From Isoetes taiwanensis (taxonomy: Eukaryota; Streptophyta; Lycopodiopsida; Isoetales; Isoetaceae): 64,000 nucleotides of DNA. Below the pieces are notes generated by a model, which saw only the letters and a list, made by a program, of their open reading frames with translations, made no database searches and was not told where the DNA came from. Below, piece by piece: positions 7,470-57,830 of this stretch; position 1 is the first letter of the stretch; every line of letters starts with the position of its first letter. Location of the stretch: positions 4,560,001 through 4,624,000 of the forward strand of contig JAJEKV010000073.1 in the NCBI GenBank assembly GCA_021234155.1, written 5' to 3'. Position numbers and translations under genes: made by a program.

Positions 7470-7711
7470 AAGGCTAATCCGGACGCACAGTTGGGAAAGA
7501 GAGAAAAATACAGACGAGTTCAACGTCCTTTTACATCTCCGTGTCCATTTTTAGTCAATTTTTAATTTTCATGACCGTAGGATGCATAAAATAGAGATCT
7601 AACGGTAGAAGATGATACCAACTCAGATTTTTATGATGTGGAGGTGACACGTGGATAGTCTAGAATTGCAAGGAGGGTTGCACGCTTGGTTAGGCTGGCG
7701 TGCTAAAAAAA
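7470..7711 (+). repeat. Poly(A)-ended dispersed repeat, copy 1
   Basis: The segment runs from CATCTCCGTGTCCATTTTTA through a TAGAGATCTAACGG block and CTAGAATTGCAAGGAGG to GGTTAGGCTGGCGTGCT and a run of A. The same ordered blocks recur at about 38780-38964, 46980-47147 and 47930-48107, all on the same strand. It could be a SINE, another retroelement end, or one terminus of a MULE family, since copies 3 and 4 bracket a MULE transposase fragment. I cannot decide between these. Confidence 0.7.
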
Positions 7712-8115
7712 AAATTGGGCGGGCGCCCAATTTGCCAAGTGTGAAGTATGGTGGAATGGTTCAAGGTAGCTGTCAAGTGGATGATCTGCGTAGAGATGCA
7801 CTTAAGCAAGAAATAGGGCTGGGCGCCAAGTGGTGTAGTGAAGTGGATGAACTTGAGGCATACAGACACTTATAGGGAAAATTGGGCACGCCCAATTTTC
7901 TTACTTTGCGATCAAGTGGAGGAGCTGCCCAGAGATGCACTTAATTAAGAAATTGGGTGGGCGCCCAATTTGCCAAGTGTGAAGTGTTGTGAAATGGTTC
8001 AAAACGAGGAGTTTGAAAGAAAAATTGGACGGTCGCCCATTTTGCCCCAGCTGTCCCTTCATGCCGTGGAAGCAGACACATATTCTTGGGACCAAAATGT
8101 GTGGGCGCCCAATTT
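7712..8115. repeat. Array of six AAATTGGGC palindromes
   Basis: Palindromic motifs start near 7712, 7811, 7877, 7950, 8022 and 8095, mostly 66-73 bp apart. The first is AAATTGGGCG-GG-CGCCCAATTT. The third has perfect 11-bp arms, GAAAATTGGGC and GCCCAATTTTC, round AC. The others are imperfect. The spacers are also related: AGAGATGCACTTAA and GCCAAGTGTGAAGT each appear twice, so the array grew by tandem duplication of a two- or three-motif block. Clustered inverted motifs of this type resemble the subterminal transposase-binding regions of CACTA/En-Spm elements. Confidence 0.8.
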
Positions 8116-9215
8116 CTCTAAGTTTCCCTAGGGGTAAGGGACTTCTGAAAGAGGTACTTAAAGAGAAAACAGTAGTTTATTGCAACAACTTCAAGACAGG
8201 CTCCGAAACAGGAGGTGTAGGCTTGTTTTCAAGCAAAGGGGGAACCAATATAGGATAGAATAGATGCCGTTGCAGTTTCAAGACGAAGTTTTAAACATAA
8301 AAGATAAGAAACAGTTACAGTATTCAGAGAATGATGCACGCACTACCTTTGCCTCCCTTGGTGGACCGACTTTCCATCAACAATTGACAAGAGGATGTGT
8401 CGCCTTGATGTGGATGGGCGCCTTGTCGTAGATGCTAGCGACAATAAAGCGTTTTTTTCGAAAGCGGAGCTGCAGTTATCCAGACAAAGGAATCTTTTTA
8501 AAATAGTCATGCACCGAGGTTCCACTGGGTTATGACAAGTGGCGACTTTCTGTTAAAATGGACCGTTGTAGTCCATAAATAATGGGGAGCCACTGTGGTT
8601 CCCAAGTCATGGGACGCCACGTGGCGATCCAGCATCCATGAATAGTAGGGCGCCACATGGCAACTGCTGTGTCCTTGGAGCAACCCTCTGAATTTGAAAT
8701 TTATAACGAGGGGTCGGTGGACCATGGGTCCACAATTCAAATTTCAGATTCAAATAAAATATGAATATCCACACATGCGCTAGATATAATGACCATGCGT
8801 ACGTGTTCTCAATAAAATTATAAAACATTGTCCTTTATTAAAAAGAAATAATTGGGGGGAAATTTGAAATCTGAATTTGAATTTGATGAGTAATTCAATT
8901 ATTATTCCTTTACGCCACCAAATTGCGTCCATTGCTTTCTGCATTTGAATCAACAATTCTTGAGCGCCTAGTTAGAATTCGAAAAGTTTCTCTCGCTCTT
9001 CGGGGGCACCACACTCCCATGGTAATTTTACTTTAAAGGTGTAGTTCTATAGTTTTGGTAGTGTTGGTTGAGTTCGAATTAATGCTTTTCTGCTATAGAA
9101 ACATGATTTTGAAGTTGTGTATGTTTTACCGCTGTAAAAGCATGATTTTCAAGTTGTGTGCTTCCATGCTTACTAGTTATATAGATTCACAAGGGAGCTA
9201 CGTAGACTTTATCTT
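8116..9215. other. Spacer between the two palindrome arrays
   Basis: No recognised gene. 8560-8680 has several loosely repeated GCCAC(G/A)TGGC-like strings (CGCCACGTGGCG at 8613, GCGCCACATGGC at 8650). The remainder is AT-rich. Confidence 0.4.
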
Positions 9216-9221
9216 GTTGAT

Positions 9222-9821
9222 TTGATTGAGCCCCCTTTTGCTCAAACAGGCTAGCTTTGAATGAACTGCCTCTGGGTGGCCCGCCAATTCAGTGTTGGTT
9301 TTAAGATTGCAGGTTCAGTGTTGAGTCCAAGTTTGATTCAAATTGAGCAGCTGCCCAATAAGAGGAGTCATGGTCTTAGAGTCTTGGCCTATTGAGCAGC
9401 CCCCTATTTTGGGTCCTCTACTCCATTTGTCTCATGACATGTGCACATTGCACATCAGGCAAACCAAATTGGGGGGGTGCCCAATTTGGCTTGCGTGGTG
9501 TTCGTAGAACATAGCAACCAATTCGGGCGAGTGCCCAATATTAGCTTTCATGTCCTGTGTACTAAACGGGAAACAAATTGGGTGGGCACCCAATTTGGAT
9601 TGCCTGGTGTGCACAGCACACGGGAATCAAATTGAGTGGCCGCCCAATTTTAGCTTTCCAGTCTTCTCCTGTGTGCTGCTTGGAAAACAATTGGGCGGCG
9701 GCCTAATTTGAGGTCCCCGGTAATGCCAAAAAAGCTTGGGGCTCAAATCAGGTAACCGCCCAATATGAGCTTCCGAATCGTGTGCATCATGGGTCAAATT
9801 GGGCGTCCGCCCAATATGAGC
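9222..9821. repeat. Second array of AATTGGGC-type palindromes
   Basis: The clearest units start near 9340, 9465, 9518, 9574, 9628, 9687, 9742 and 9793, with a spacing of about 46-59 bp through the right half. Examples are CAAATTGGGTGGGCACCCAA at 9574 and GTCAAATTGGGCGTCCGCCC at 9793. Weaker units appear near 9222, 9270 and 9386. Spacers share words such as TAGCTTTC and GAGCTTCC. The array ends 72 bp before the ATG at 9893. It shares the core motif but neither spacing nor spacer sequence with the array at 7712-8115. Confidence 0.8.
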
Positions 9822-10708: not shown

Positions 10709-12937
10709 ATGCGCAAGGAATTCTATGCAATGAAGTCTAGTGACAGGGTAACACTTGTGTACGACATGCTTGGGAACAATATGAAAGGCCGACGAGTGGA
10801 ATGACTTGTGTTGCATGGAAGGCGAGTCTGTGAGAGACCCTGGTACCTTGGGCTTGGAATATCAAAGTCAGGGTATTTGAAATGGAAAGCGCAATACATG
10901 GAGGGTGCTCACAAAGCAAAGCATGGCAATTGTGGTAGTATGAAGCCTCGTGCTTCCACCTTAGCATCCGAGGTTGTGTTCTCCATGTTCGTAAGGGAGA
11001 ATTGCGAGTCCTTGCCTCACTGTAGTCGGAGGAATGAAGATGGCATCGGGGAGAACGTCAGGAAGTTGCCTGCAATGTTTACGAAAACGAGCATCCTAGA
11101 TGAGGTGAATGTAGAAGTTATGGCACTAACAGGCAAGAAAGTCTCGCCAACGGGTTTTCATATAACATGGAAAAGGAGCTTTAGGGATGTCAATATCACA
11201 AAAACGATTCCGTTCTCTAAATGTGACACGTGCGAGGTCATCCATACGAAGTTGTTGAAGACAAAGGATAGAAAGGAGGATATTGCATGAGCAGAGAAGA
11301 ACACACAGATTGGGGCAAGCCTCCTATCGCACCCAGTATTGGTCGTGGAGATTATATTCCCATAGGTATTTAAAGACTATATTTGTATTATTCATGACAA
11401 GATGGACCAGGCGAAGACAATGATTTCAAAATTGCAGCAGTCAATGAAGTCTCTTTGGAGACTGGATAAACTCAAAACATCCTTGACAGGTGCTCTCACT
11501 CATGGCCATGGAAGGGGAAGCTATGGAAATTTTGCTTTGACCTATGGCCAGACGACTCAAACTTCCATGTAGGTTCTCTGAATAGCATTCTGAAAAGGCT
11601 CGAGATGGTTCATGAGTATGCAGGAGGCCATCTTACAGTGCCCAAAACATCAGCTCCAGCTTGGGTAACTTCCCTGCATAACAATGCGGCACTCACCAAT
11701 AGAAACATCCTTGTAAGCTTGCCTAGACCAGAGGGACCTTCTTTCAAGCCGCTCCCCTGAACACTGATGCTGCAACTGGACAATGCTTCTGGTCAAAACA
11801 AGAATAGGTATGTATTCTCATATCTTTCATACCTAGTATATCTTGGTGTGTTTGAGGAGATAGAGTTGGGTTTCATGATGCCTGGCCATACACACGAGGA
11901 CATCGATGCTTTGTTTGACAACTTCTCCTCCACTCTAAAGAAGGCCGAGGTGCTGACCATGCCCGAATTGCTGTATGAGTTCCATACATGCAACCTAGAT
12001 GCACCTGTGCCTTATATTGTTGATAAAGTGCCAGATTGGAAGGGGTTTATAGAAGGGTACATTCCCGATGGGGATGATAGATTGACTGGCCACACCACCT
12101 CCCTGACATTCAAATTTGCTATGAATGGTGAGTGGCCCATCATGTACTACAAAACCCATCCGTGTTTCTTGGATTGGCTACCTACAGGTGGTATAGAAAT
12201 GTGAAAAGAAGGGGAAGACGGAAAGCCCATGATACCGACTGGAAGCCCTAAGCTCCACCGAAGGCATTAGTAAAAGACCGTGGCCAATTAAGAAACATCA
12301 TCTATAAGCATATTCTACATTGGGTTGCAATCTCCACAAGCAAGAAGGCACCCCAGAAACAACCAACTATTCCGCACAGTTCACGGCTACGATTGAGTAT
12401 TGGATGGATCTTTTACAAGAGCTAGAGAAGATCTTATGCATGGAGGGCACTTCTCTGGCCATGCACAAGGCAAGAACGAGCTCAACTACCAGAAATGGTG
12501 GCAATAGTGGAGCCAATTGCAAGCATCACTCCTCCCCACGTGGGACCGTTGAAGGACAAACCCATACCAGATCAATCCATTCAAGAACGTGAAGAAGGGT
12601 ATGTTCATTATGGCGTGTCTTGATGACGTGTTGTGTCCCATATGGGTAGGGTACGCCACTAAGGAGCCCCAAATGGATGATAAGAAGGAGAATTTTGAGA
12701 CAGTCCAGGTGACTTGGTGGGAGCCTGTCCCCGTGAGGAACCCAAGTGTACCCAGCCAATTATGTTAATTGTTGGAAGAAAAGATGGAGGCCAACAACTG
12801 CTCATGATTGCATTGAATTAGAGACAATCGACTTTACTTGGGCTCCATCAAATAGGAAGAAGCTCCCCAACACTATCAAGATTCCAGTGCTTTACGCGTT
12901 ACGGTACAAACATAATGAAATTGTGCTCTTGAACTAG
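10709..12937 (+). pseudogene. DUF7869-like transposon protein, broken
   Basis: A reading frame from MRKEFYAMKSSDRVTLVYDM continues past an in-frame TGA (10802) into RPWYLGLGISKSGYLKWKAQ and the FSKCDTCEVIHTKLL motif, to a stop at 11290. Further pieces follow in shifted frames: IIHDKMDQAKT near 11385-11417, LPRPEGPSFKPLP, then 11767-12204 with LQLDNASGQNKNRYVFSYLS and LGFMMPGHTHEDIDALF. CLDDVLCPIWVGYATKEP lies near 12615 and WKKRWRPTTAHDCIELETID near 12775. The 'LDN..GQNKN' plus 'GHTHEDID' pair is the hallmark of the DUF7869 family, found in many transposon-like plant and algal proteins. At least four frame breaks show that it is dead. The function of the family is not established; the acidic motifs are nuclease-like. 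Confidence 0.7.
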
Positions 12938-19682: not shown

Positions 19683-20642
19683 ATGACCGGTCAAATTCAC
19701 GAGATCGATGCATTTTGCATCAGCTCGACTGAAGGTGCAAAGGATTGCAATCCGAGGAAGCAGAAGAAGGCAATGGTTCCAAAGCCTGGTGAGTCGATGC
19801 CCCCTGATAATTCTTTGGCCTTGATTGTTCATGGAAGTGATGCTGATGCCATTGAAAGCAAGAAAAGAAAGCGTCCTGTTGATTGGTCTGACAATGCAAT
19901 TGGCACAATGCTTTCCTTGATGAAAGAATATAAAGTGCATAATAATGGGAACATTAATCTATCCGCCAGTCAGTGGAGAGAGATCATGATAAAACTTCGA
20001 CATTCAGTTGAGGGCTTAGAAGATATAAGGCAGTTGAGAAACAAATGGGATAAATTGCAGATTAAATTTAGGGATGAAAAAGAAGCTTCAGAGAGGACTG
20101 GAGCAGAACCTTCGAGCTGGCCATGGTTTGAAGTCATGGAAGATTTAAAGCACGGACAGACTAATGAGAGAGACATACCTGGTGGTGGAGATGATGGATC
20201 TTTTGGTCCCGAGGCATTTCAAGAAGCTGATATGTTCACAAATGAATTTATGTCTCAAGCATTCTATGAGACAATTGGCACTGAAGCTTCCTTTGTTGAA
20301 GAAGAATTTGTAAATGTTGAGAATGTGAATGTTGAGAACAATGGAGGTGTTCCTGCCAGTCCATACAGTCCAATTGGGAATGGCAGTAAAGACAATACTA
20401 GTGCTTTAAAGAGACTCCAAGTGGCTGCAATATTTTTCGATACAAGCCCAAGATCTGCTGCTTGCAATAAACCAGGAGTTTATGGGAAGCCAACAACCAA
20501 AAGAAGATCTCGAGTTCATATAGATGAAGATATTGCAGCAGGCATATCTAAAATGGCAAACAGTTTTGGGGAAAATGAAGCAAGAAAATTGGAGTTCATG
20601 AGGAGGATTCGTGAAGAAAGCGTAATTGATCAAAAGAATTAG
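19683..20642 (+). CDS. Myb/SANT-like DNA-binding protein (Harbinger ORF1)
   Basis: This is a 319-codon open frame, the best preserved in the window. Residues about 65-145 form a Myb/SANT-like (trihelix-type) domain: VDWSDNAIGTMLSLMKEY, then SASQWREIMIKLR, QLRNKWDKLQIKFRDEKEAS and WPWFEVMEDL, with the spaced Trp residues of this fold. A KKRKRP cluster just before it could be a nuclear signal. The C-terminus (AAGISKMANSFGENEARKLE) looks helical. In PIF/Harbinger elements such proteins bind DNA and help bring the transposase to the ends. ATG at 19683 has a good plant context (AAGATGA). After the TAG the same frame goes on as QPAALKIAESMATMTQSICR, so the original protein may have been longer. A domesticated host gene is possible. 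Confidence 0.8.
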   Translation: MTGQIHEIDAFCISSTEGAKDCNPRKQKKAMVPKPGESMPPDNSLALIVHGSDADAIESKKRKRPVDWSDNAIGTMLSLMKEYKVHNNGNINLSASQWREIMIKLRHSVEGLEDIRQLRNKWDKLQIKFRDEKEASERTGAEPSSWPWFEVMEDLKHGQTNERDIPGGGDDGSFGPEAFQEADMFTNEFMSQAFYETIGTEASFVEEEFVNVENVNVENNGGVPASPYSPIGNGSKDNTSALKRLQVAAIFFDTSPRSAACNKPGVYGKPTTKRRSRVHIDEDIAAGISKMANSFGENEARKLEFMRRIREESVIDQKN

Positions 20643-39460: not shown

Positions 39461-40517
39461 ACAACATAACAACAAAAAATGATATATAGCAATTGTGGAG
39501 CCTCAAAAAAGGTCAACAGGTTATTAAAGTAATTTAGAAGAGTTATCAATGGAATAAAGAACATTTGTTAAGAAGATGACCGTTAGATCATGTCATGAGG
39601 ATTGAACCCAGCATATCCTTGTGCTTTATTTTAACACTAACAACTTTGAATCAAACAATTTAAACTTAAATGACATGAAGTTTCAATAGTGCAAATGTGT
39701 TTTGCTTTAGCACTAAGGCCTTTGAATCCAACCATTTAAACTCAATGAATGTGAAGCTACATAAAACTAAGCATTTGCTTGATAATAAGAATTTAATTTG
39801 AAACAGCCTTAAGCAAAGTGTGAACCTACTCATTGCAACACACCAAATTTTATATGTTTCAAGCTTTCTTGCCAATTCTAGTCCCTAAACATTAGGCGGC
39901 CAGCAGATAAGTCATGACTAAGATCCAAATGCGAGATGCATTAGTGAAAGGACAGAAAATAAAGAGGCACAAACAAAAATTTTAGAATTCAAACCAGAAA
40001 AAAACTAGAATTCATTTGAGGCTTTCATCACCTGTAGCTTTTGAATTTGATCACAATAAAACAAATAGAACATAAGTAAAAGTTACCATAAAGATAGAGC
40101 AGATTGATCCCATTAGTTCTGAAAGTCATAAAGTTTGCAACACCCATACACAAACATTTTTCAACTGGAATTTAACAGCAGCCTTTGGCCTCCATGGATT
40201 CTTGTGGTGAGAAACCAAAGTGGGAAACTTTTCTGCTTGTTAGCACAAGGATCTAGAAGCCTTGGAATTTGCTTAATAACTGCCTTAAAATCTAAAAATG
40301 CATGGTAATTTTTTGCAAGCTTCATTCGGAATGAGCCATAAAACAATATCCAATAGCGCAATCCTGTATTAATCAGCTGGTAGGATGTGAAAGCCTATCT
40401 CGGAGAGAGTTTTCCAACGCAATAAAAATCATCTCAAACAGAGCTCTGGATCAAAAGTTATGATAAGAAATGTGTTGCCGGCGGGGAAACTGCACTACAT
40501 GCACCATTCAAGCCCTT

Positions 40518-40715
40518 CATGTGCCTATTATGCACCACACACACAAAAAGAGGGCTTTTGTTGTGAGTGATTGGTTGTTAACCATTGAAAAAAAAAGGCT
40601 AAAATCAATGGCCCTTTATGTGCCCATTACGCACCACATGCACAAAAAAAGGGCTTTTGTTGTGAGCCATTGGTTGTTGACCATTGAAAAAAAAAAGGCT
40701 AAAATCAATGGCTCA
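40518..40715 (+). repeat. Tandem duplication, 99 bp
   Basis: Two copies begin at CATGTGCCTATTATGCACCA (40518) and TATGTGCCCATTACGCACCA (40617). Both contain GGGCTTTTGTTGTGAG and GGTTGTTGACCATTGAAA (with small changes), an A-run and GGCTAAAATCAATGGC. Confidence 0.9.
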
Positions 40716-40976
40716 GAAATGGTGCACTCTAGATGTACGCATTAGTACATCCATTTGAATACATCACGAAATCATAGGAAAACCTTAGTGAAAAGCGTAC
40801 AAAAACACAAAAAAAACCCCTGTTATTGTGCTAGATATTCCTTCTAGAGATTAATGGATTTCTAGAGATTAAGGCTAATGGAAAGAAAAGTGCCTCAATA
40901 TGTAAATAGCATCTAGCATCAGAACCTTACTTGAATTTGTAGGACCTTGTGTCCAAAATTCAAGAATTTATAGAAG

Positions 40977-41080
40977 AGGAGGCTAACTTCCCCTTCAAGG
41001 GGGTTATGCAAAATAACCCTCGAGGCCGTAGGTCGAGAGGGTTATTTGCATAACCCCCTTGAAGGGGAGGTTGACCTCCC
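40977..41080. repeat. Composite palindrome H1
   Basis: Arms of about 47 bp: AGGAGGCTAACTTCCCCTTC then AAGGGGGTTATGCAAAATAA pair with TTATTTGCATAACCCCCTT then GAAGGGGAGGTTGACCTCCC. The centre is GAGGCCGTAGGTCGA. Inside, each arm itself contains a near-palindrome (GGGTTATGCAAAATAACCC), so a cruciform with side hairpins is possible. It shares plan and core words with H2-H5 but differs in most arm bases. Confidence 0.9.
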
Positions 41081-42573
41081 TTAAACTATTGGGTGAGAAG
41101 ATTGGAAAAAAAGATTAAAAAAAAGACGGCGGCCATGGTTTCACCGTTCACATTGTTTACACAGAGTTTTTTGGATGCGGATCCGGCCAACGTTTAGCGG
41201 CCATTCAAGGCCTGCCAAGGCCGATGCAGCCTGAAAGCAACGGCAAGCTAGAGGCGCCGTTTTTCCAAGCCCCAACCAGTATTATGTATGATTCTTTCTG
41301 TTTTATTGTTTCCTTGCAAAGATTGTTTGTTTCTACATTTTTTTGCAGATTTTTTTGCAGGTTTCTATGCTCGTGATGCATCAAACAATGCGAATCCTAA
41401 AGCACATCTTGGTTTTCAGCAGAGCAAAGGCAGGAACCGAATGCACGAAAGCAAAGTGGTGCCTCTTTTTCTAAAGCTAGTCGGCTATGGCAGAGCCATC
41501 CCTTGAAATCATGTTTTGCAGATGCAGCTTCTGGTTTGAAACCTTTTGGTAAGGTCGTCTATATTTTGCCAAGATTTAGAGCATATTCGCTGCTAAGAAG
41601 GCTAAGAAAATATACAGGATTCTCAGAATATGATTTTATAGAGGCCAGTAAGCAGCAATGGATATGTCCAGTGATTCATATCTTAGGAATTAGATTTCTG
41701 ATAAAGTTCTGTAGGAAAATCGAAAGCAGACTGACGTTTTTGTGCTTAGATGACTTACTGCATCTAATGATGGATAGGTTTGCAGATCATTCTGGTGGCC
41801 ATGTGCTAATAAGGATAAGGAAATATACAGGGTCTCAGGGTATGTTTTTAAAGAGTGTAGTAAGTACCAATGGAGATGTGCAATGTTCATTCAGGTAGCC
41901 AACATGATTTCAAGAGCCTAGACTGTGATTTCAAGAGATGGCAGCAAAACTGTTTATAACCAGTTTATGTTTATGTTTCTTCTCGCAGTAAACATTATAA
42001 ATTTTTATCTGTTTAAGCTTTTTAATGAGGGAATATTCTGAAGATTATCATCTCAATAAAGAATATTCTGAAGATTATCATTGATAATCTTTGTAATATT
42101 TCAAAGGTTATCACTGATAATCTTTGGAATATTCCAAGATGCTGCAAGTTACAACTTTTAACCTATCTAACGGTTGAAAATTAGATCGGAATAATCTTCG
42201 AGCCCAATGGTTTAAGAGATATTAATTGAAATAGCGGGGTTGGATCCTATGTACATAAGATACAATCTAAACAAGGATCATGCGCACAAGAATCTAAACT
42301 CAACCAGAATTGTTACTAGACAACACCAACCACAAAAGACAGGTATGTTCTTAGCCCAATTCCTAGCCCAGCAGAGTTCACTATTTATTAAATTTGGTTT
42401 TTATTGCTTCAAGTCGTTAACGTTGAGCCCCAAACCCCTGTCATTTGCCAAATCTCAGCAAATTTTAAGAGCTCACTTATAATTTTGATTTCACAGCTGC
42501 AGGTATTACCGTGGCTTCGTAACCTTCCAACCTATAATGGGCCCCCTGAAAAAAGGCCTGGGAATTGGCCCAC
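41081..42573. other. Region between H1 and the tandem units
   Basis: An open frame at 41503-41898 (131 codons, internal echo RLRKYTG / RIRKYTG) has no recognised domain. 42030-42135 holds nested inverted repeats: GAAGATTATCATTGATAATC and AAGGTTATCACTGATAATCT, each close to palindromic, flanked by GAATATTC words. No firm gene. Confidence 0.35.
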
Positions 42574-42689
42574 TTAAGAGGAGGATAACCCCTCCCTTGA
42601 GTGGGTTATGCAAAATAACCCACGAGGCCGTTAGGGCCGAGTGGGTTATTTTGCATAGCCCACGAAAGGGAGGGGTTGGCCTCCCTTAA
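42574..42689. repeat. Composite palindrome H2
   Basis: Left arm TTAAGAGGAGGATAACCCCT then CCCTTGAGTGGGTTATGCAA; right arm TTGCATAGCCCACGAAAGGG then AGGGGTTGGCCTCCCTTAA. The centre is GGCCGTTAGGGCC. The sub-hairpins GTGGGTTATGCAAAATAACC and CAC, and the reverse on the other side, fold on their own. The tandem unit starts here. Confidence 0.92.
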
Positions 42690-43081
42690 CCACGTGCCCG
42701 AGCAGATTAAGTGGAAAATTTCAAAGAAAGGTCATAGCAGGCAATACCATTTGCTCTGCTCTAGGTATGCCATGAATGATTTTTGATGAATCTGCAGCGG
42801 CTGTGGTGCAATGCTAACAATCTCCTCAAACGTGCGTAAGAAGAATCTAGCGAGAAAAATGATTCCTCAGCAGCCCAATTCCAATTCCAATGGAGTCCTT
42901 TGGAAGACCTCATTTAGTTAAATTTGATTCAAAGCAAGGCTGCAAAATGTTAAACAAAACCCAACCTATTGCTGGCCAAGAAGCAATAATCCTCTTGAAT
43001 CATTGGAAGGCCCTTGAGCTACAAAAGCTCGACCGCCCTAAATTTAACAAAGTTTCAAAGCCAACGAAGCCGCGAATACTC

Positions 43082-43348
43082 CTAATCGGACTTTCTTACT
43101 TCAGATCCGGCATCCACGATATGCTGCAAAGCCTGCGAAGAAGAAGAATTAGCTAAAGCACCAAACAGAGCTCCGGCTATGGTTTTTGCCCTATATTTCG
43201 ACATTTTCCTGCGATTTAAGCGTGGAAGAAACTGGCAGAATGGCTTTTGCAGAAATGCCGGCCTGCTTCTGGTGGTGGTGGAGAAGGTTTGCAGTGCCGG
43301 AACTCCTAGACCCCATCGCAGCAGATCCATCGCAGCAGAGAATCGCAA
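43082..43348 (-). pseudogene. Transit-peptide-like gene fragment, unit 1
   Basis: The frame starts MRFSAAMDLLRWGLGVPALQ and continues FSTTTRSRPAFLQKPFCQFL with PRLNRRK, a hydroxylated, basic, acid-free leader of the kind that targets chloroplasts or mitochondria. Then come MSKYRAKTIAGALFGALANS and a short Ala-rich helix, ending at SEVRKSD in this copy. Unit 3 carries a longer version. I do not recognise the family. Confidence 0.45.
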
Positions 43349-43506
43349 TGGAGCAACAGAATATTTGATGATTATGGCATATTCGAAAAGTTATTGCAAT
43401 AACCACTCGAATATTCTTCAAAAAAGTTTAATATTAAAAGGTTATGCAATATAACCTTCCTTGGACGGACGATTGGGCAACGATCGGATTAATTTAATCT
43501 GCAGGG

Positions 43507-43630
43507 CACGTGGTTAAGAGGAGGATAACCCCTCCCTGAGGTGGGCAAAATAACCCACGAGGCCGTTAGGCCGAGTGGGTTATTTTGCATAGCCCACGAA
43601 AGGGAGGGGTTGGCCTCCCTTAACCACGTG
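43507..43630. repeat. Composite palindrome H3
   Basis: Outer arms CACGTGGTTAAGAGGAGGAT and CCTCCCTTAACCACGTG, with the flanking words TTAATCTGCAGGGCACGTGG and CCACGTGCCCGAGCAGATTA extending the symmetry to about 155 bp. One sub-hairpin is shortened (GGTGGGCAAAATAACCCAC). Confidence 0.92.
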
Positions 43631-43665
43631 CCCGAGCAGATTAAGTGGAAAATTTCAAAGAAAGG

Positions 43666-44150
43666 TCATAGCAGGCAATACCATTTGCTCTGCTCTAGGT
43701 ATGCCATGAATGATTTTTGATGAATCTGCAGCTGCTGTGGTGCAATGCTAACAATCTCCTCGGCAGCCTGTGCAGAAGAAGAATCTAGCAGAAAAGATGA
43801 TTCCTCAGCAGCCCCAATTCCAATTCCGGCAATCAGTCCTTTGGAAGACCTCATTTAGTTCAGCTGATTCAGTGCAGGCTGCAAAATGTTAAACAAAACC
43901 CAACCTATTGCTGGCCAAGAAGCAATAATCCTCTTGAATCATTGGAAGGCCCTTGAGCTGCAAAAGCTTCTGACACAGCCCCTAAATTTAACAAAGTTTC
44001 AAAGCCAACCGAAGCCGCAATACTCCCTAATCCAGACTTTCTTACTTCAGATCCGGCATCCACGATATGCTGCAAAGCCTGCGAAGAAGAAGAATTAGCT
44101 AAAGCACCAAACAGAGCTCCGGCTATGGTTTTTGCCCTATATTTCGACAT
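43666..44150 (-). pseudogene. Gene fragment, unit 2
   Basis: Upper piece 43905-44150: MSKYRAKTIAGALFGALANS, LQHIVDAGSEVRKSGLGSIA and VGFETLLNLGAVSEAFAAQG to LLLLGQQ. Lower piece 43666-43854: MRSSKGLIAGIGIGAAEESS to IHQKSFMAYLEQSKWYCLL. The two lie in different frames about 50 bp apart. The leader seen in units 1 and 3 is damaged here. Family unknown; Ala/Gly-rich helices suggest a small membrane or organelle protein. Confidence 0.45.
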
Positions 44151-44453
44151 TTTCCTGCGATTTAAGCGTGGAAGAAACTGGCAGAATGGCTTTTGCAGTA
44201 AATGCCTACCGCTTTCTGGTGGTGGTGGAGAAGGTTTGTAAATCGCGAACTCCTAGACCCCATCGCAGCAGATCCATCGCAGCAGAGAATCGCAATGGAG
44301 CAACAGAATATTTGATGATTATGGCATATTCGAAAAGTTATTGCAATAACCACTCGAATATTCTTCAAAAAGCGAATATTCTGAAGGTTATGCAATATAA
44401 CCTTCCTTGGATCGGACGGTGGGCAACGACTGGATTAATTTAATCTGCAAGGG

Positions 44454-44580
44454 CACGTGGTTAAGAGGAGGATAACCCCTCCCTTGAGTGGGTTATGCAA
44501 AATAACCCACGAGGCCGTTAGGCCGAGTGGGTTATTTTGCATAGCCCACGAAAGGGAGGGGTTGGCCTCCCCAACCACGC
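44454..44580. repeat. Composite palindrome H4
   Basis: Same plan as H2 and H3, with GGCACGTGGTTAAGAGGAGG on the left. The right outer arm (GGCCTCCCCAACCACGC) is slightly altered. Confidence 0.92.
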
Positions 44581-44619
44581 TTGCCCGAAAGCGATTAAGT
44601 GGAAAATTTCAAAGAAAGG

Positions 44620-45254
44620 TCATAGCAGGCAATACCATTTGCTCTGCTCTAGGTATGCCATGAATGATTTTTGATGAATCTGCAGCTGTTGTGGTGCAAT
44701 GCTAACAATCTCCTCGGCAGCCTGTGCAGAAGAAGAATCTAGCAGAAAAGATGATTCCTCAGCAGCCCCAATTCCAATTCCGGCAATCAGTCCTTTGGAA
44801 GACCTCATTTAGTTCAGCTGATTCAGTGCAGGCTGCAAAATGTTAAACAAAACCCAACCTATTGCTGGCCAAGAAGCAATAATCCTCTTGAATCATTGGA
44901 AGGCCCTTGAGCTGCAAAAGCTTCTGACACAGCCCCTAAATTTAACAAAGTTTCAAAGCCAACCGAAGCCGCAATACTCCCTAATCCAGACTTTCTACCC
45001 CCGGATCCGCATCCATCCACGTTATATGTCGCGAAAGCCTGCGAAGAAGAAGAATTAGCTAAAGCACCAAACAGAGCTCCGGCTATGGTTTTTGCCCTAT
45101 ATTTCGACATTTTCCTGCGATTTAAGCGTGGAAGAAACTGGCAGAATGGCTTTTGCAGAAATGCCGGCCTGCTTCTGGTGGTGGTGGAGAAGGTTTGCAG
45201 TGCCGGAACTCCTAGACCCCATCGCAGCAGATCCATCGCAGCAGAGAATCGCAA
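44620..45254 (-). pseudogene. Gene fragment, unit 3 (longest)
   Basis: The frame 44859-45254 (131 codons) joins the targeting-type leader (MDLLRWGLGVPALQTFSTTT, RSRPAFLQKPFCQFLPRLNR) to MSKYRAKTIAGALFGALANS and VGFETLLNLGAVSEAFAAQG. The piece 44620-44808 repeats MRSSKGLIAGIGIGAAEESS. The middle (FATYNVDGCGSGG) differs from units 1-2 (LQHIVDAGSEV) through compensating shifts. The best reading is a nuclear gene for an organelle-targeted protein of unknown function whose fragment was amplified with the palindromes. A short real gene with an intron between the pieces cannot be excluded. Confidence 0.5.
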
Positions 45255-45412
45255 TGGAGCAACAGAATATTTGATGATTATGGCATATTCGAAAAGTTAT
45301 TGCAATAACCACTCGAATATTCTTCAAAAAGCGAATATTCTGAAGGTTATGCAATATAACCTTCCTTGGATCGGACGGTGGGCAACGGCTGGATTAATTT
45401 AATCTGCAAGGG

Positions 45413-45538
45413 CACGTGGTTAAGAAGGGGTTAAACCCCTGTGAGAGCCCATTACGGCAAATAAATGGGCGAGCCCGTGAGGGGCGAGCCCATTTATTTG
45501 CAAGAATGGGCGAGCATGTGGGTTTGACCCTTTAACCG
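45413..45538. repeat. Composite palindrome H5 (divergent)
   Basis: It starts like H3 and H4 (GGCACGTGGTTAAG), then changes to AGGGGTTAAACCCCTGTGAG and AGCCCATTACGGCAAATAAA. The right side changes to match: AGCCCATTTATTTGCAAGAA then TGGGCGAGCATGTGGGTTTG. The centre is GAGCCCGTGAGGGGCGAG. Pairing is kept although the arm sequence is new. Confidence 0.9.
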
Positions 45539-45739
45539 CAGGTGTCCGAAACCGTTTTCGGGCGACCGATCTTGCTTGCTACACTCCCTTGCAAATATGT
45601 TGGCGAGATTCCAAGGCACAACCTACATCCGGAAGAGATTTTCAGTAGATTTATGTGCGAGGCAAAGCACAAATCCCGCCAAGAATATATTTTTTAACAG
45701 ATTTGAATGAGGATGCAAACCGCCAGAAGAGAGTTTTCA

Positions 45740-45935
45740 AGTGATTCATGATTTGTAGGCAAGAACAAGAACAATTCATGATTCAGATTCATGATTTGCA
45801 GATTCATGATTTGTAGGCGCCAAGAACAAGTAGAATGGGAAAAATACTGGGCAAGTTATCCCTCACGACAAGCCGCTGCAGATGGTTTATCATGATAACC
45901 AGGCTGCAGATGGTTTATCGTGATAACCAGGCCAA
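45740..45935. repeat. Short duplications with palindromic cores
   Basis: GATTCATGATTTG(C/T)AG recurs three times at 45743-45820. GGCTGCAGATGGTTTATC(A/G)TGATAACCAG occurs twice at about 45868-45931, with a near-palindrome (GGTTTATCATGATAACC) at its core. Confidence 0.8.
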
Positions 45936-46007
45936 GGATCACTTGTTACGGCTAATCACCAGTCTAGATCTAACGGCTAGGATCTAAAATAGGCAAGGAC
46001 CTGCCGG

Positions 46008-46355
46008 TTAAGACGTATCTCGCTTTCTAGGAACAGCTATGGATTTGATAACTTCGGCATCATCGCCCATGAAATCATTCACCAATGCCGCTAACGAGCT
46101 TGGCTCATGTTCGCTTCCGCTGCTAAAATAACGGTTCCTTTCTGCTTTCATCTCGTCTCTAAGCAGCCATGCTTTCAGTATTTCTAAAAACCTCGGATCC
46201 TTTCCCTCTTCGGCATTCATGCCATGCCCAGAAGAATTGATTTGAGCCGGATATCGCAAATGCCCTACCGGCTGCCCTTGTTTGCATAAGTGGAAGAATC
46301 GGAAAAGTGGAAGAATCGGATTTGCTTTTTCCCGAACTCGATCAAATTTGGACAT
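46008..46355 (-). CDS. Uncharacterised 115-codon frame
   Basis: It starts MSKFDRVREKANPILPLFRF and holds EGKDPRFLEILKAWLLRDEM and SLAALVNDFMGDDAEVIKSI. The composition (charged helices, few Cys) is protein-like and unlike the repeats around it. No known domain is recognised. It follows the palindrome block and could be another exon of the same captured gene or a separate small gene. Confidence 0.35.
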   Translation of the reverse strand: MSKFDRVREKANPILPLFRFFHLCKQGQPVGHLRYPAQINSSGHGMNAEEGKDPRFLEILKAWLLRDEMKAERNRYFSSGSEHEPSSLAALVNDFMGDDAEVIKSIAVPRKRDTS

Positions 46356-55443: not shown

Positions 55444-57830
55444 AGCTTATTTGCATGAGAACTTGATAAAGAAAACCCATTAACAGGTCACTACTTTTTG
55501 CGGACTAAATGCAAAGACGCCACAATGTACATTACATTGGAATGAATTCTTCAAAAGTAAATAAAGCTAACCTAAACTCGGAGAAAGCATGTCCATCTTG
55601 CTATTCGCAACAAACACAATTTTTGAGCTTCAAGAAATTTAACCAAAGCAAAAATATAGATCATAAATCTTTGAGTTTTCAGATACATCGCATGCAAGGC
55701 TAATGAATTTTATGCTCAGCTTATCGGCAAACCTTAATGGGCTTGTGACAAAGCACAAATTCTGTTCTCAGAGCTCATTGATCATAGAATATGGGTCCGG
55801 AAGGAAAAGCTTATTTGCATGAGAACTTTGATAAAGAAAAATCCATTAATAGGTCACTTTTCGGATTTGGATGCAAGACGCCACACGCTGCCCGGGCGAC
55901 ATTTTGCATCCGACATCATAACGTACATTACATTGGAATGAATTCTTCAAAAGCAAATAGGCGCACCTAGACTCAGAGAAAATAGGTCCACCTTGCTATC
56001 TGCAAATTCTTGAGCTTCAAGAAATTTGCAGCCAGAAAGGCTATGCACTACCTTATCTGAACTCAAAACCGTCCCTATATGACAACTATTTAGCCAAAGC
56101 AAAACTATAGATCATAAATCTTTGAGTTTTCAAATACATAACATGCAAGGCTAATGAATTTTATGCTCTAATATCAGCTTATTAGCAAACCTTAATGGGG
56201 CTGGTGACAAAAAGCTAATTCATCTCCTTGAAAGTCATGCAACTCGAATTCAATGAAAATCCCGCAAATAGTATTTGTCGAGTTAGTGGTTGTCGGGGGC
56301 TCATTGATCATAGAGTATGGGCATTCGGAAGTAAACAAAGATAGAGAAATGAAGCTGAAGTAATAGTCTTGAGATCTACAGGAAGGAAAAGTAGCCTCAT
56401 TAATAGGTCGATGGCTTGCTCCAAAATTTCAAGAGGGGCTCGGAATCTGCAAAAGAAAGTAGAAACAGTAAGAGCATAACTTTCCTGCTTTGGGAGGAGC
56501 ATAGCTTTCATGCTTTGGGAGGCCAAAATAAAACAAACCTTGGGGTCCAGGGAAGAGCTTCCTTATTGGAATGAATTCTTCAAAAGTAAATAGGCGCACC
56601 TGGACTCAGAGAAAATAGGTCCACCTTGCTATCTGCAAATTCTTGAGCTTCAAGAAATTTGCAGCCAGAAAGGCTATGCACTACCTTATGTGAACTCAAA
56701 ACTGTCCCTATATGACAACTATACCCAGCCAAAGCAAAATTATAGATCATAAATCTTTGAGTTTTCAAATACATACATGCAAGGCTAATGAATTTTATAC
56801 TCAAATATCAGCTTATTAGCAAACCTTAATGGGCTGGTGACAAAGCAACTCGAATCCAGCTCAATGAAAATCCTGCAAATAGTATTTGTCAGAGTTAGTG
56901 GTTGTCAGGGCTCATTGATCATAGAGTATGGGCATTCCTGCAGCGTAAACAAAGATAGAGAAATGATCCAAGTAATAGTCTTGAATCTGAGGAAGGAACA
57001 GGGAGTAGCCTCACCTGTGACTGTGATTCGATGGCTTGCTCAAAAAGTGAAGAGGGGCTCGGAATCGCAAAAGAAAGTAGAAACAAGAAGAGCATAACTT
57101 TTCCCGCTTTGGGAGGAGCATAGCTTTCATGCTTTGGGAGGCCAAAATAAAACAAACCTTGGGGTCAGGGAAGAGCTTCCTTATTGGAATGAATTCTTCA
57201 AAAGTAAATAGGCGCACTGGACTCGAGGAGAAAATAGGTCCACCTTGCTATCTGCAAATTCTTGAGCTTCAAGAAATTTGCGACCGAAAAAAACTATGCA
57301 CTACCTTATGTGAACTCAAAACTGTCCCTATATGACAACTATACCCAGCCAAAGCAAAATTATAGATCATAAATCTTTGAGTTTTCAAATACATACATGC
57401 AAGGCTAATGAATTTTATACTCAAATATCAGCTTATTAGCAAACCTTAATGGGCTGGTGACAAAGCAACTCGAATCCAGCTCAATGAAAATCCTGCAAAT
57501 AGTATTTGTCAGAGTTAGTGGTTGTCAGGGCTCATTGATCATAGAGTATGGGCATTCCTGCAGCGTAAACAAAGATAGAGAAATGATCCGAAGTAATAGT
57601 CTTGAATCTGAGGAAGGAACAGGGGAGTAGCCTCACCTGCAGCCAGATTCGATGGCTTGCTCCAAAAGCTGAAGAGGGCTCTGGAATCTGCAAAAGAAAG
57701 TAGAAACAATAAGAGCATAACTTTCGTGCTTTGGGAGGAGCATAGCTTTCATGCTTTGGGAGGCCAGAATAAAACGAACCTTGGGGTCCAGGGAAGAGCT
57801 ATCCAAATCTTCAAGGATCACCAAGCAACC
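55444..57830 (-). repeat. Four tandem units carrying gene fragments
   Basis: GGAATGAATTCTTCAAAAG marks units at 55539, 55935, 56568 and 57186 (periods 396, 633, 618). Units 3 and 4 are nearly identical apart from changes at CAG/CTG words. Units 1 and 2 share a different upstream block (GCTTATTTGCATGAGAACTT at 55447 and 55811). Read on the minus strand the units contain spliceable exons (see 57637-57846). Confidence 0.9.

Follow-up and report, generated by a model that had tools for sequence, protein, structure and literature searches.

What are the five large inverted repeats, H1–H5, that crowd into positions 40977–45540 of a 64,000-bp stretch of the Isoetes taiwanensis genome, and what keeps their arms symmetrical? 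The stretch, referred to here as the window (GCA_021234155.1, contig JAJEKV010000073.1, positions 4,560,001–4,624,000, forward strand), is part of an assembly of 1.66 Gb in 1110 contigs and appears to be nuclear DNA of a land plant, judging from its PPR and LRR frames and its match to a nuclear psbY. An initial annotation proposed an element whose inverted ends abut in tandem, or a foldback-type element, and ascribed the symmetry to selection or to a copying mechanism. The analysis reported here points to a different kind of element: H1–H5 are probably hairpins that form the 3' ends of non-autonomous rolling-circle transposons, with a mechanism like that of Helitron2/Helentron elements.

All five palindromes were confirmed at their annotated places by self-comparison and by folding against shuffled sequences. 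As single-stranded DNA they fold with energies of -35 to -52 kcal/mol (z scores of -8.8 to -15.9), and none of 200 shuffles of each folded as well. An ungapped palindrome scan finds H1, H2, H4 and H5, the gapped H3 lying outside its list. The length of 100–155 bp originally given to the palindromes holds in part: the terminal hairpins measure 106–114 nt, and the ~155 bp apparent at H3 and H4 includes the end of the neighbouring element, because this end (D') pairs with a subterminal repeat (D) of the element that owns the hairpin. The further claim that each inner arm is itself a hairpin is borne out for 9 of the 10 half-arms, each of which self-folds so well that no more than 3 of 500 dinucleotide shuffles match it, but not for the left arm of H1, which 61 of 500 shuffles equalled.

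Three families of small non-autonomous elements, all on the minus strand, own these hairpins, and the outermost two reach beyond the 40977–45540 range given earlier. E1 (40976–42215, 1240 bp) has its 5' end at 42215 and its 3' end at 40976, as defined by dispersed copies that share both ends, and terminates in H1 (40976–41084; self-alignment, folding and the hairpin model R1). E2 is present as three abutting copies (42578–45423): U1 (42578–43517, 940 bp), U2 (43518–44464, 947 bp) and U3 (44465–45423, 959 bp), ending respectively in H2 (42578–42689), H3 (43518–43623, with a 5-base loss in one arm) and H4 (44465–44574). The 588-bp E3 (45424–46011), likewise delimited by dispersed copies, abuts the 5' end of U3 with its own 3' end and terminates in H5 (45424–45537). 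H2–H5 were each delineated by folding and model R1; since H1, H2, H4 and H5 served as rows in building R1, their matches to it are by construction. The original placement of the palindromes at the borders of three ~950-bp units carrying a gene fragment therefore stands, with the fragment now recognised as a piece of psbY.

Each element carries one terminal composite hairpin, at its 3' end alone, together with a pair of asymmetric inverted repeats. On the minus strand, the 5' end reads TTAA(A)CC..., and the same 20–26 nt recur in inverted orientation just inside the hairpin; the 3' ends read ...CTCCTC or ...CCCTTC. Repeat comparison places the 5' copy within 0–2 bp of the 5' end in all three families (E1, 42193–42215; U1, 43494–43517; U2, 44440–44464; U3, 45399–45423; E3, 45992–46011). 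The 3' copy lies immediately upstream of the hairpin, ~105–110 bp from the element end (E1, 41080–41103; U1, 42685–42710; U2, 43619–43644; E3, 45531–45549). The E3 subterminal copy is degraded here and better preserved in a copy elsewhere in the genome (L064), and the corresponding stretch of U3 is altered, with no exact match, unlike that of U2. Near its 5' end, E1 has an AT-rich version of the nested plan of the terminal hairpins, a palindrome at 42061–42134 found by palindrome scan and folding. Simple hairpins related to this plan lie near the E2 5' ends (U1, 43438–43458; U2, 44383–44405; U3, 45342–45364); no strand is assigned to either kind.

The palindromes are not confined to a single locus, a point on which the initial annotation had turned. 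A genome search with 40977–45540 returned 130 matches from the best 40 of 1315 candidates, and copies fetched with their flanks (L013–L032) resolved into two dispersed families: E1 starts at H1, and E2 copies start at H2, H3 or H4 and stop just before the next palindrome. Searching with the H5 region (best 40 of 454 candidates) yielded E3 as the third dispersed family. Two further hairpin types were recognised, E4, a 1.07-kb family on contig C1080, and E5, seen only as a hairpin beside an E3 copy in L068. By eye, E4 has nested self-hairpins and the inner arm of the E5 copy is hardly self-complementary; this fifth type (L068, 2082–2191) suggests that nested hairpins are not obligatory. The exact 26-nt core of H1 occurs at 78 places genome-wide and the reversed pattern at none. 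When the 78 cores were compared with 41 listed 5' ends within 15 kb, six further places combined an H1 core with a 5' end of the E2 type, 0.5–1.1 kb apart, on one strand and in the expected order, the remaining hits all lying inside the window.

Elements are found joined end to end in a shared orientation, both within a family and between families. A second array, on contig C1038 (L031), is built of a relative of E1, ~70–77% identical to the E1 group, repeated head to tail in four units. U2 and U3 are mutually nearest copies (96.3%), U1 is no nearer to them than are some dispersed copies, and the C1038 units are as near to copy L030 as to one another. Copy identities thus favour neither read-through nor serial insertion as the origin of the arrays. 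Three other observations concern copies outside the window. On C1080 (340617–344410, L075), two E4 elements of ~1.07 kb lie in opposite orientation on either side of a frame resembling, by eye, an ankyrin-repeat membrane protein. Five H1 cores on C919 (1077519–1429666) share one orientation at a spacing of ~81–97 kb, perhaps a large tandem duplication. One E1 copy (L015) is without most of its hairpin and has E2-like 5' end sequence adjoining, perhaps through hairpin-driven deletion.

Insertion sites bear directly on how the elements move. For 22 copies with both ends recognisable, the 70 bases on either side were joined and used in a genome search (best 40 of 2055 candidates); L015, L018, L019, L020, L022, L029, L030, L031 and L064 were not used, L022 being the same insertion as L016, duplicated along with its surroundings. 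The search listed an empty site for 12 of these 22 copies (13 stretches aligned) and none for the other 10; all 12 insertions are seamless. Target duplication, a possibility raised with the initial annotation, is absent beyond shared end letters from the 12 insertions with an empty site; these letters are not counted as duplication because the element always ends in GGTT(T)AA, independently of the target. Empty sites also set the boundaries of L023 and L027, the latter moved by three bases. On the minus strand the target approximates C|WT: the preceding base is C in 17 of 22 copies with L023 corrected (16 of 22 as first printed), and the second base after the element is T in 21 of 22. In one case (L068/L081) E3 has gone in precisely at a 3' hairpin belonging to another family, as an empty site confirms. 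L070 lies within one copy of a tandem duplication of 38 bp, and the second copy acts, by eye, as its empty site.

These sites, taken with the anatomy of the units, are what decides the case of a foldback element or a miniature inverted-repeat transposable element (MITE), in which terminal inverted repeats would be cut by a DDE transposase and the palindromes would be such ends abutting in tandem. Inverted repeats do occur at both ends of each unit and TTAA adjoins several palindromes, as that proposal would have it. However, the palindrome is at one end only, the 12 insertions with an empty site lack a duplication, and the TTAA belongs to the element: the 22 copies, selected because both ends were present, terminate in GGTT(T)AA, though 14 of them have, as printed, an opposite flank that closes with AT. 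A foldback or MITE-type origin is thus largely refuted and very improbable; of the earlier proposal, the mobile unit in tandem survives, and the abutting terminal inverted repeats or foldback ends give way to a single palindrome per element with an asymmetric repeat. Terminal repeats like those of adeno-associated virus, considered because a hairpin with its flanking repeat resembles a 'double-D' junction, were rejected as well, the hairpin being at one end only.

The arms of the hairpins have diverged in step. H1, H2–H4 and H5 share a common plan, with two-sided changes at 20 of 45 pairs, which upholds the earlier statement that both arms changed together. A wider comparison drew on 20 hairpins from five families (alignment A3), out of 28 distinct hairpins that represent 37 copies; L017, L020, L022, L026, L028, L029, one L031 copy and H3 were left out for indels or strong divergence. 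The structure derived from A3 has 42 pairs, and 97.6% of its 840 cells are paired. Leaving out divergent and indel-bearing copies raises this share: L022 and L029 have several changes that do not pair, and the centre with the GA/GA step is missing from three excluded copies. Two-sided changes are seen at 22 of the 42 pairs; sliding the partners by 1–3 columns leaves 41–56% paired and 2–6 two-sided pairs, and 1 of 500 shuffles reached 22. Further pair types numbered 39, fewer than the shuffled mean of 42.5. These counts are not to be read as probabilities because copies were left out, the structure comes from the same alignment and the rows are related. Between family consensuses, summed over ten non-independent comparisons, 104 changes are two-sided with pairing kept, 19 one-sided and 24 unpaired, and the two-sided class is the majority in 8 of the 10. 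Paired bases changing together between families suggests that the folded shape matters for transposition.

Symmetry could also be kept in the absence of selection, if one arm were rewritten from the other by template switching or gene conversion. According to excerpts of PMC8794818, template switching is able to generate stems as well as compensatory changes of several bases, and arm bases have changed in whole blocks between E1 and E3. The pattern within families tells otherwise. Among the kept copies, none of 21 changes is two-sided (13 one-sided with the pair kept, 8 with the pair lost; four of the 21 common to two copies). Arm copying would, moreover, erase an unpaired step, yet the central CGAG/CGAG step, in which G-A stands opposite A-G, is kept in 19 of 20 hairpins across all five families. 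Between the outer and middle stems, E2–E5 have a similar GA/GA step, with L024 and L074 as exceptions, and E1 has CAAG. Steps of this kind may form stable sheared pairs in DNA. The absence of two-sided change within families among the kept copies, its prevalence between them and the retained GA/GA step together favour selection on the folded strand, and arm copying is accordingly improbable. Of the two explanations originally offered for the symmetry, the evidence now leans to selection.

Selection could have acted on RNA, the hairpin being a small-RNA precursor or a structured transcript and not transposon DNA, and strong covariation is compatible with this. Nevertheless, Rfam gave no match within the window, and E1, E2 and E3 each end exactly with the hairpin despite their differing bodies, which transposition explains directly; we regard an RNA role as quite improbable. 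A 19-mer core had no match in viral contigs and four bacterial matches in prokaryote contigs, about the chance number by estimate.

The body of E2 carries 504–522 bp matching another locus, L090, at 88–92% (U1, 42807–43310, 88%; U2, 43741–44257, 92%; U3, 44695–45216, 92%; all minus strand). L090 has an open frame of 234 codons with two PsbY modules and looks like a donor because its match to E2 stops inside E2. The fragment lies in sense orientation from element 5' to 3' and has frame breaks and a stop; frame pieces in U2 and U3 match PsbY. That the palindromes might be promoter palindromes of psbY copies was rejected, as hairpins of this kind also terminate elements whose bodies are quite unlike that of E2.

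In the rolling-circle reading of these elements, movement would be replicative, with an enzyme supplied in trans, most likely of the RepHel type. The enzyme would nick the 5' end and peel off and replicate one strand, and the hairpin formed in the displaced strand would mark the stop. Strands that fold well would be favoured, so that lineages keep pairing by two-sided changes and resident copies decay one-sidedly. Tandem arrays might arise from the C|WT site being recreated at each 3' end, or from read-through of the stop. More tentatively, the families could represent a distinct plant rolling-circle lineage in which a structured single-stranded DNA motif of 110 nt forms the 3' end. The enzyme would read the three stacked stems of this motif, parted by conserved tandem G-A mismatches, as a specific stop and cut signal, and arrays would grow because every inserted 3' end restores the preferred C|WT target; we hold this reading to be possible and clearly short of probable.

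Several results weigh against a Helitron2-like mechanism. No autonomous partner emerged when 114 hairpin places (75 of the 78 H1 cores and 39 E3 places) were compared with the best 150 of 1813 Helitron-type Rep candidates: three hairpins lie within 40 kb of a Rep match, of which two share a match on C1080, at distances of 6.3 and 10 kb, and the third is 30 kb from a match on C907. Nor was a hairpin found within ~1.5 kb of 30 Rep loci. Because scoring covered only these best 150 candidates, and the lists of hairpins are incomplete, a partner may have been missed. The C1080 locus, whose Rep is 95% identical to another listed Rep, was rejected as an autonomous element, its two hairpins ending ~1.07-kb elements and nothing tying the Rep to them. 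Two-sided changes are not the majority between E1 and E4 (2 of 6) or E2 and E4 (5 of 10). Some resident copies are without the hairpin centre or more (L017, L020, L028 and one L031 copy). The first 40 nt of the elements fold at -0.8 (E1), -2.6 (E2) and -4.3 kcal/mol (E3), so a 5' terminal hairpin, a Helitron2 trait in the excerpts of PMC3627910, is absent in E1 and weak in E2 and E3. The same source gives a target of TTTT|T/C for Helitron2 in Chlamydomonas, compared with ~C|WT here, and the 3' hairpin is several times longer than those described. Finally, a Helraiser element deprived of its 3' hairpin is said in excerpts of PMC4778049 to retain ~35% activity, a level that sits uneasily with strong selection over 110 nt.

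Some of these points would suit a different class of rolling-circle or single-strand transposition, Replitron-like, for instance, or still unnamed: a partner RepHel was not found among the best 150 Rep candidates, and both the C|WT target and the hairpin length are unlike described Helitron2. The asymmetric inverted repeat upstream of the 3' hairpin is, on the other hand, the Helitron2 signature, and a different class is in our estimate unlikely. The elements probably work like Helitron2; membership of Helitron2 is not established, because the scored Rep candidates gave no autonomous element and neither the 5' hairpin nor the T-rich target is shared.

Part of the variation at the locus probably stems from the assembly. 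The 92 differing columns between U1 and U2 are clumped, falling into 23 clusters against a random expectation of 50.7 (minimum of 1000 draws, 40), and between the places where the E2 units differ, as many as 309 bases in a row are identical. Long-read consensus errors probably account for some of the differences among U1–U3, and perhaps for the 5-base loss in H3, so the assembly may make the E2 array look older and more varied than it is. The arm differences of H1 and H5, which had been thought open to the same explanation, are not such errors, because they keep pairing and recur in other copies.

Elsewhere in the window, a 99-bp unit in two tandem copies lies ~260 bp to the left of E1 (40512–40712), and a tandem repeat with a unit of ~630 bp, its copies 86–91% alike, occupies 55932–57800. 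A second, unrelated kind of short palindrome, AAATTGGG..CCCAATTT, occurs at five exact places with varying centres in 7711–8116 and 9465–9818; seven distinct places lie within 3 mismatches of its consensus (0 expected in shuffles), and weaker ones can be made out by eye. Open frames with a DUF7869 domain (11767–12204) and with a Myb/SANT-like, trihelix-type DNA-binding domain (19683–20642) complete the inventory.

Helitrons reshape genomes by moving pieces of genes, and the families described here, with 78 exact cores of one hairpin type, amount to a large natural data set with a covarying 3' hairpin. The covariation makes it testable which hairpin features, including the conserved GA/GA mismatch, the transposition machinery reads, and one-sided decay in residents versus two-sided change between lineages cleanly separates selection on DNA structure from arm copying.

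How, then, do these elements compare with known rolling-circle systems? Full-text searches of open-licence literature for Helitrons with long or imperfect palindromes (15 of 54 papers shown) and for psbY capture (12 of 124 shown) gave, among the papers shown, no title or abstract opening that describes this plan. Helitrons with non-canonical ends are said, in the Fusarium account excerpted here (PMC5148889), to escape search tools tuned to TC/CTRR ends. The initial statement that no described family has the plan needs qualification, as Helitron2/Helentron elements share the terminal arrangement, with shorter hairpins. Canonical Helitron1 is further removed: excerpts of the Helraiser study (PMC4778049) describe a 3' hairpin that acts as terminator and read-through that captures flanks, as proposed for the elements here, and they also give 5'-TC and CTRR-3' ends, an A|T target, no inverted repeats and a 19-bp hairpin, none of which is found in E1–E3. 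The Fusarium elements FoHeli have asymmetric inverted repeats and hairpins, with one element inserted 2 bp from another, but in the same excerpts differ in their repeats, which are 12–16 bp long and lie ~20–51 bp from the 3' end, in their termini and target, and in their fungal host (PMC5148889). Helentrons, DINE-1 and HINE share with the Isoetes families subterminal inverted repeats, a 3' palindrome, no target-site modification and clustering, and some of them carry gene pieces, as E2 does (Thomas et al. 2014, PMC4067079, in part). As excerpted there, they are described from animals and an oomycete intermediate, not from a plant; their T-rich or TT target and short 3' palindrome have no counterpart here, and in the mite HINE the palindromes are 5–10 bp and the subterminal inverted repeats lie 38–60 bp from the 3' end.

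The closest likeness is to Helitron2 as the excerpts of PMC3627910 (Bao and Jurka 2013) present it. Its 3' repeat lies 20–30 bp from the end, as against ~105–110 bp here, its repeats are 8–15 nt long as against 20–26 nt, and its CRe-1, 2 and 3 elements have target duplications, unlike the elements here. According to the same excerpts, the Chlamydomonas Helitron-1N1 elements insert with no target duplication, and Helitron2 has asymmetric repeats, with the 5' copy terminal and the 3' copy upstream of the 3' hairpin, and compensatory changes between related elements. E1–E3 resemble it in precisely this arrangement: a 5' repeat at the very end of the element, a subterminal 3' repeat before the 3' hairpin and a 5' end that starts with T.

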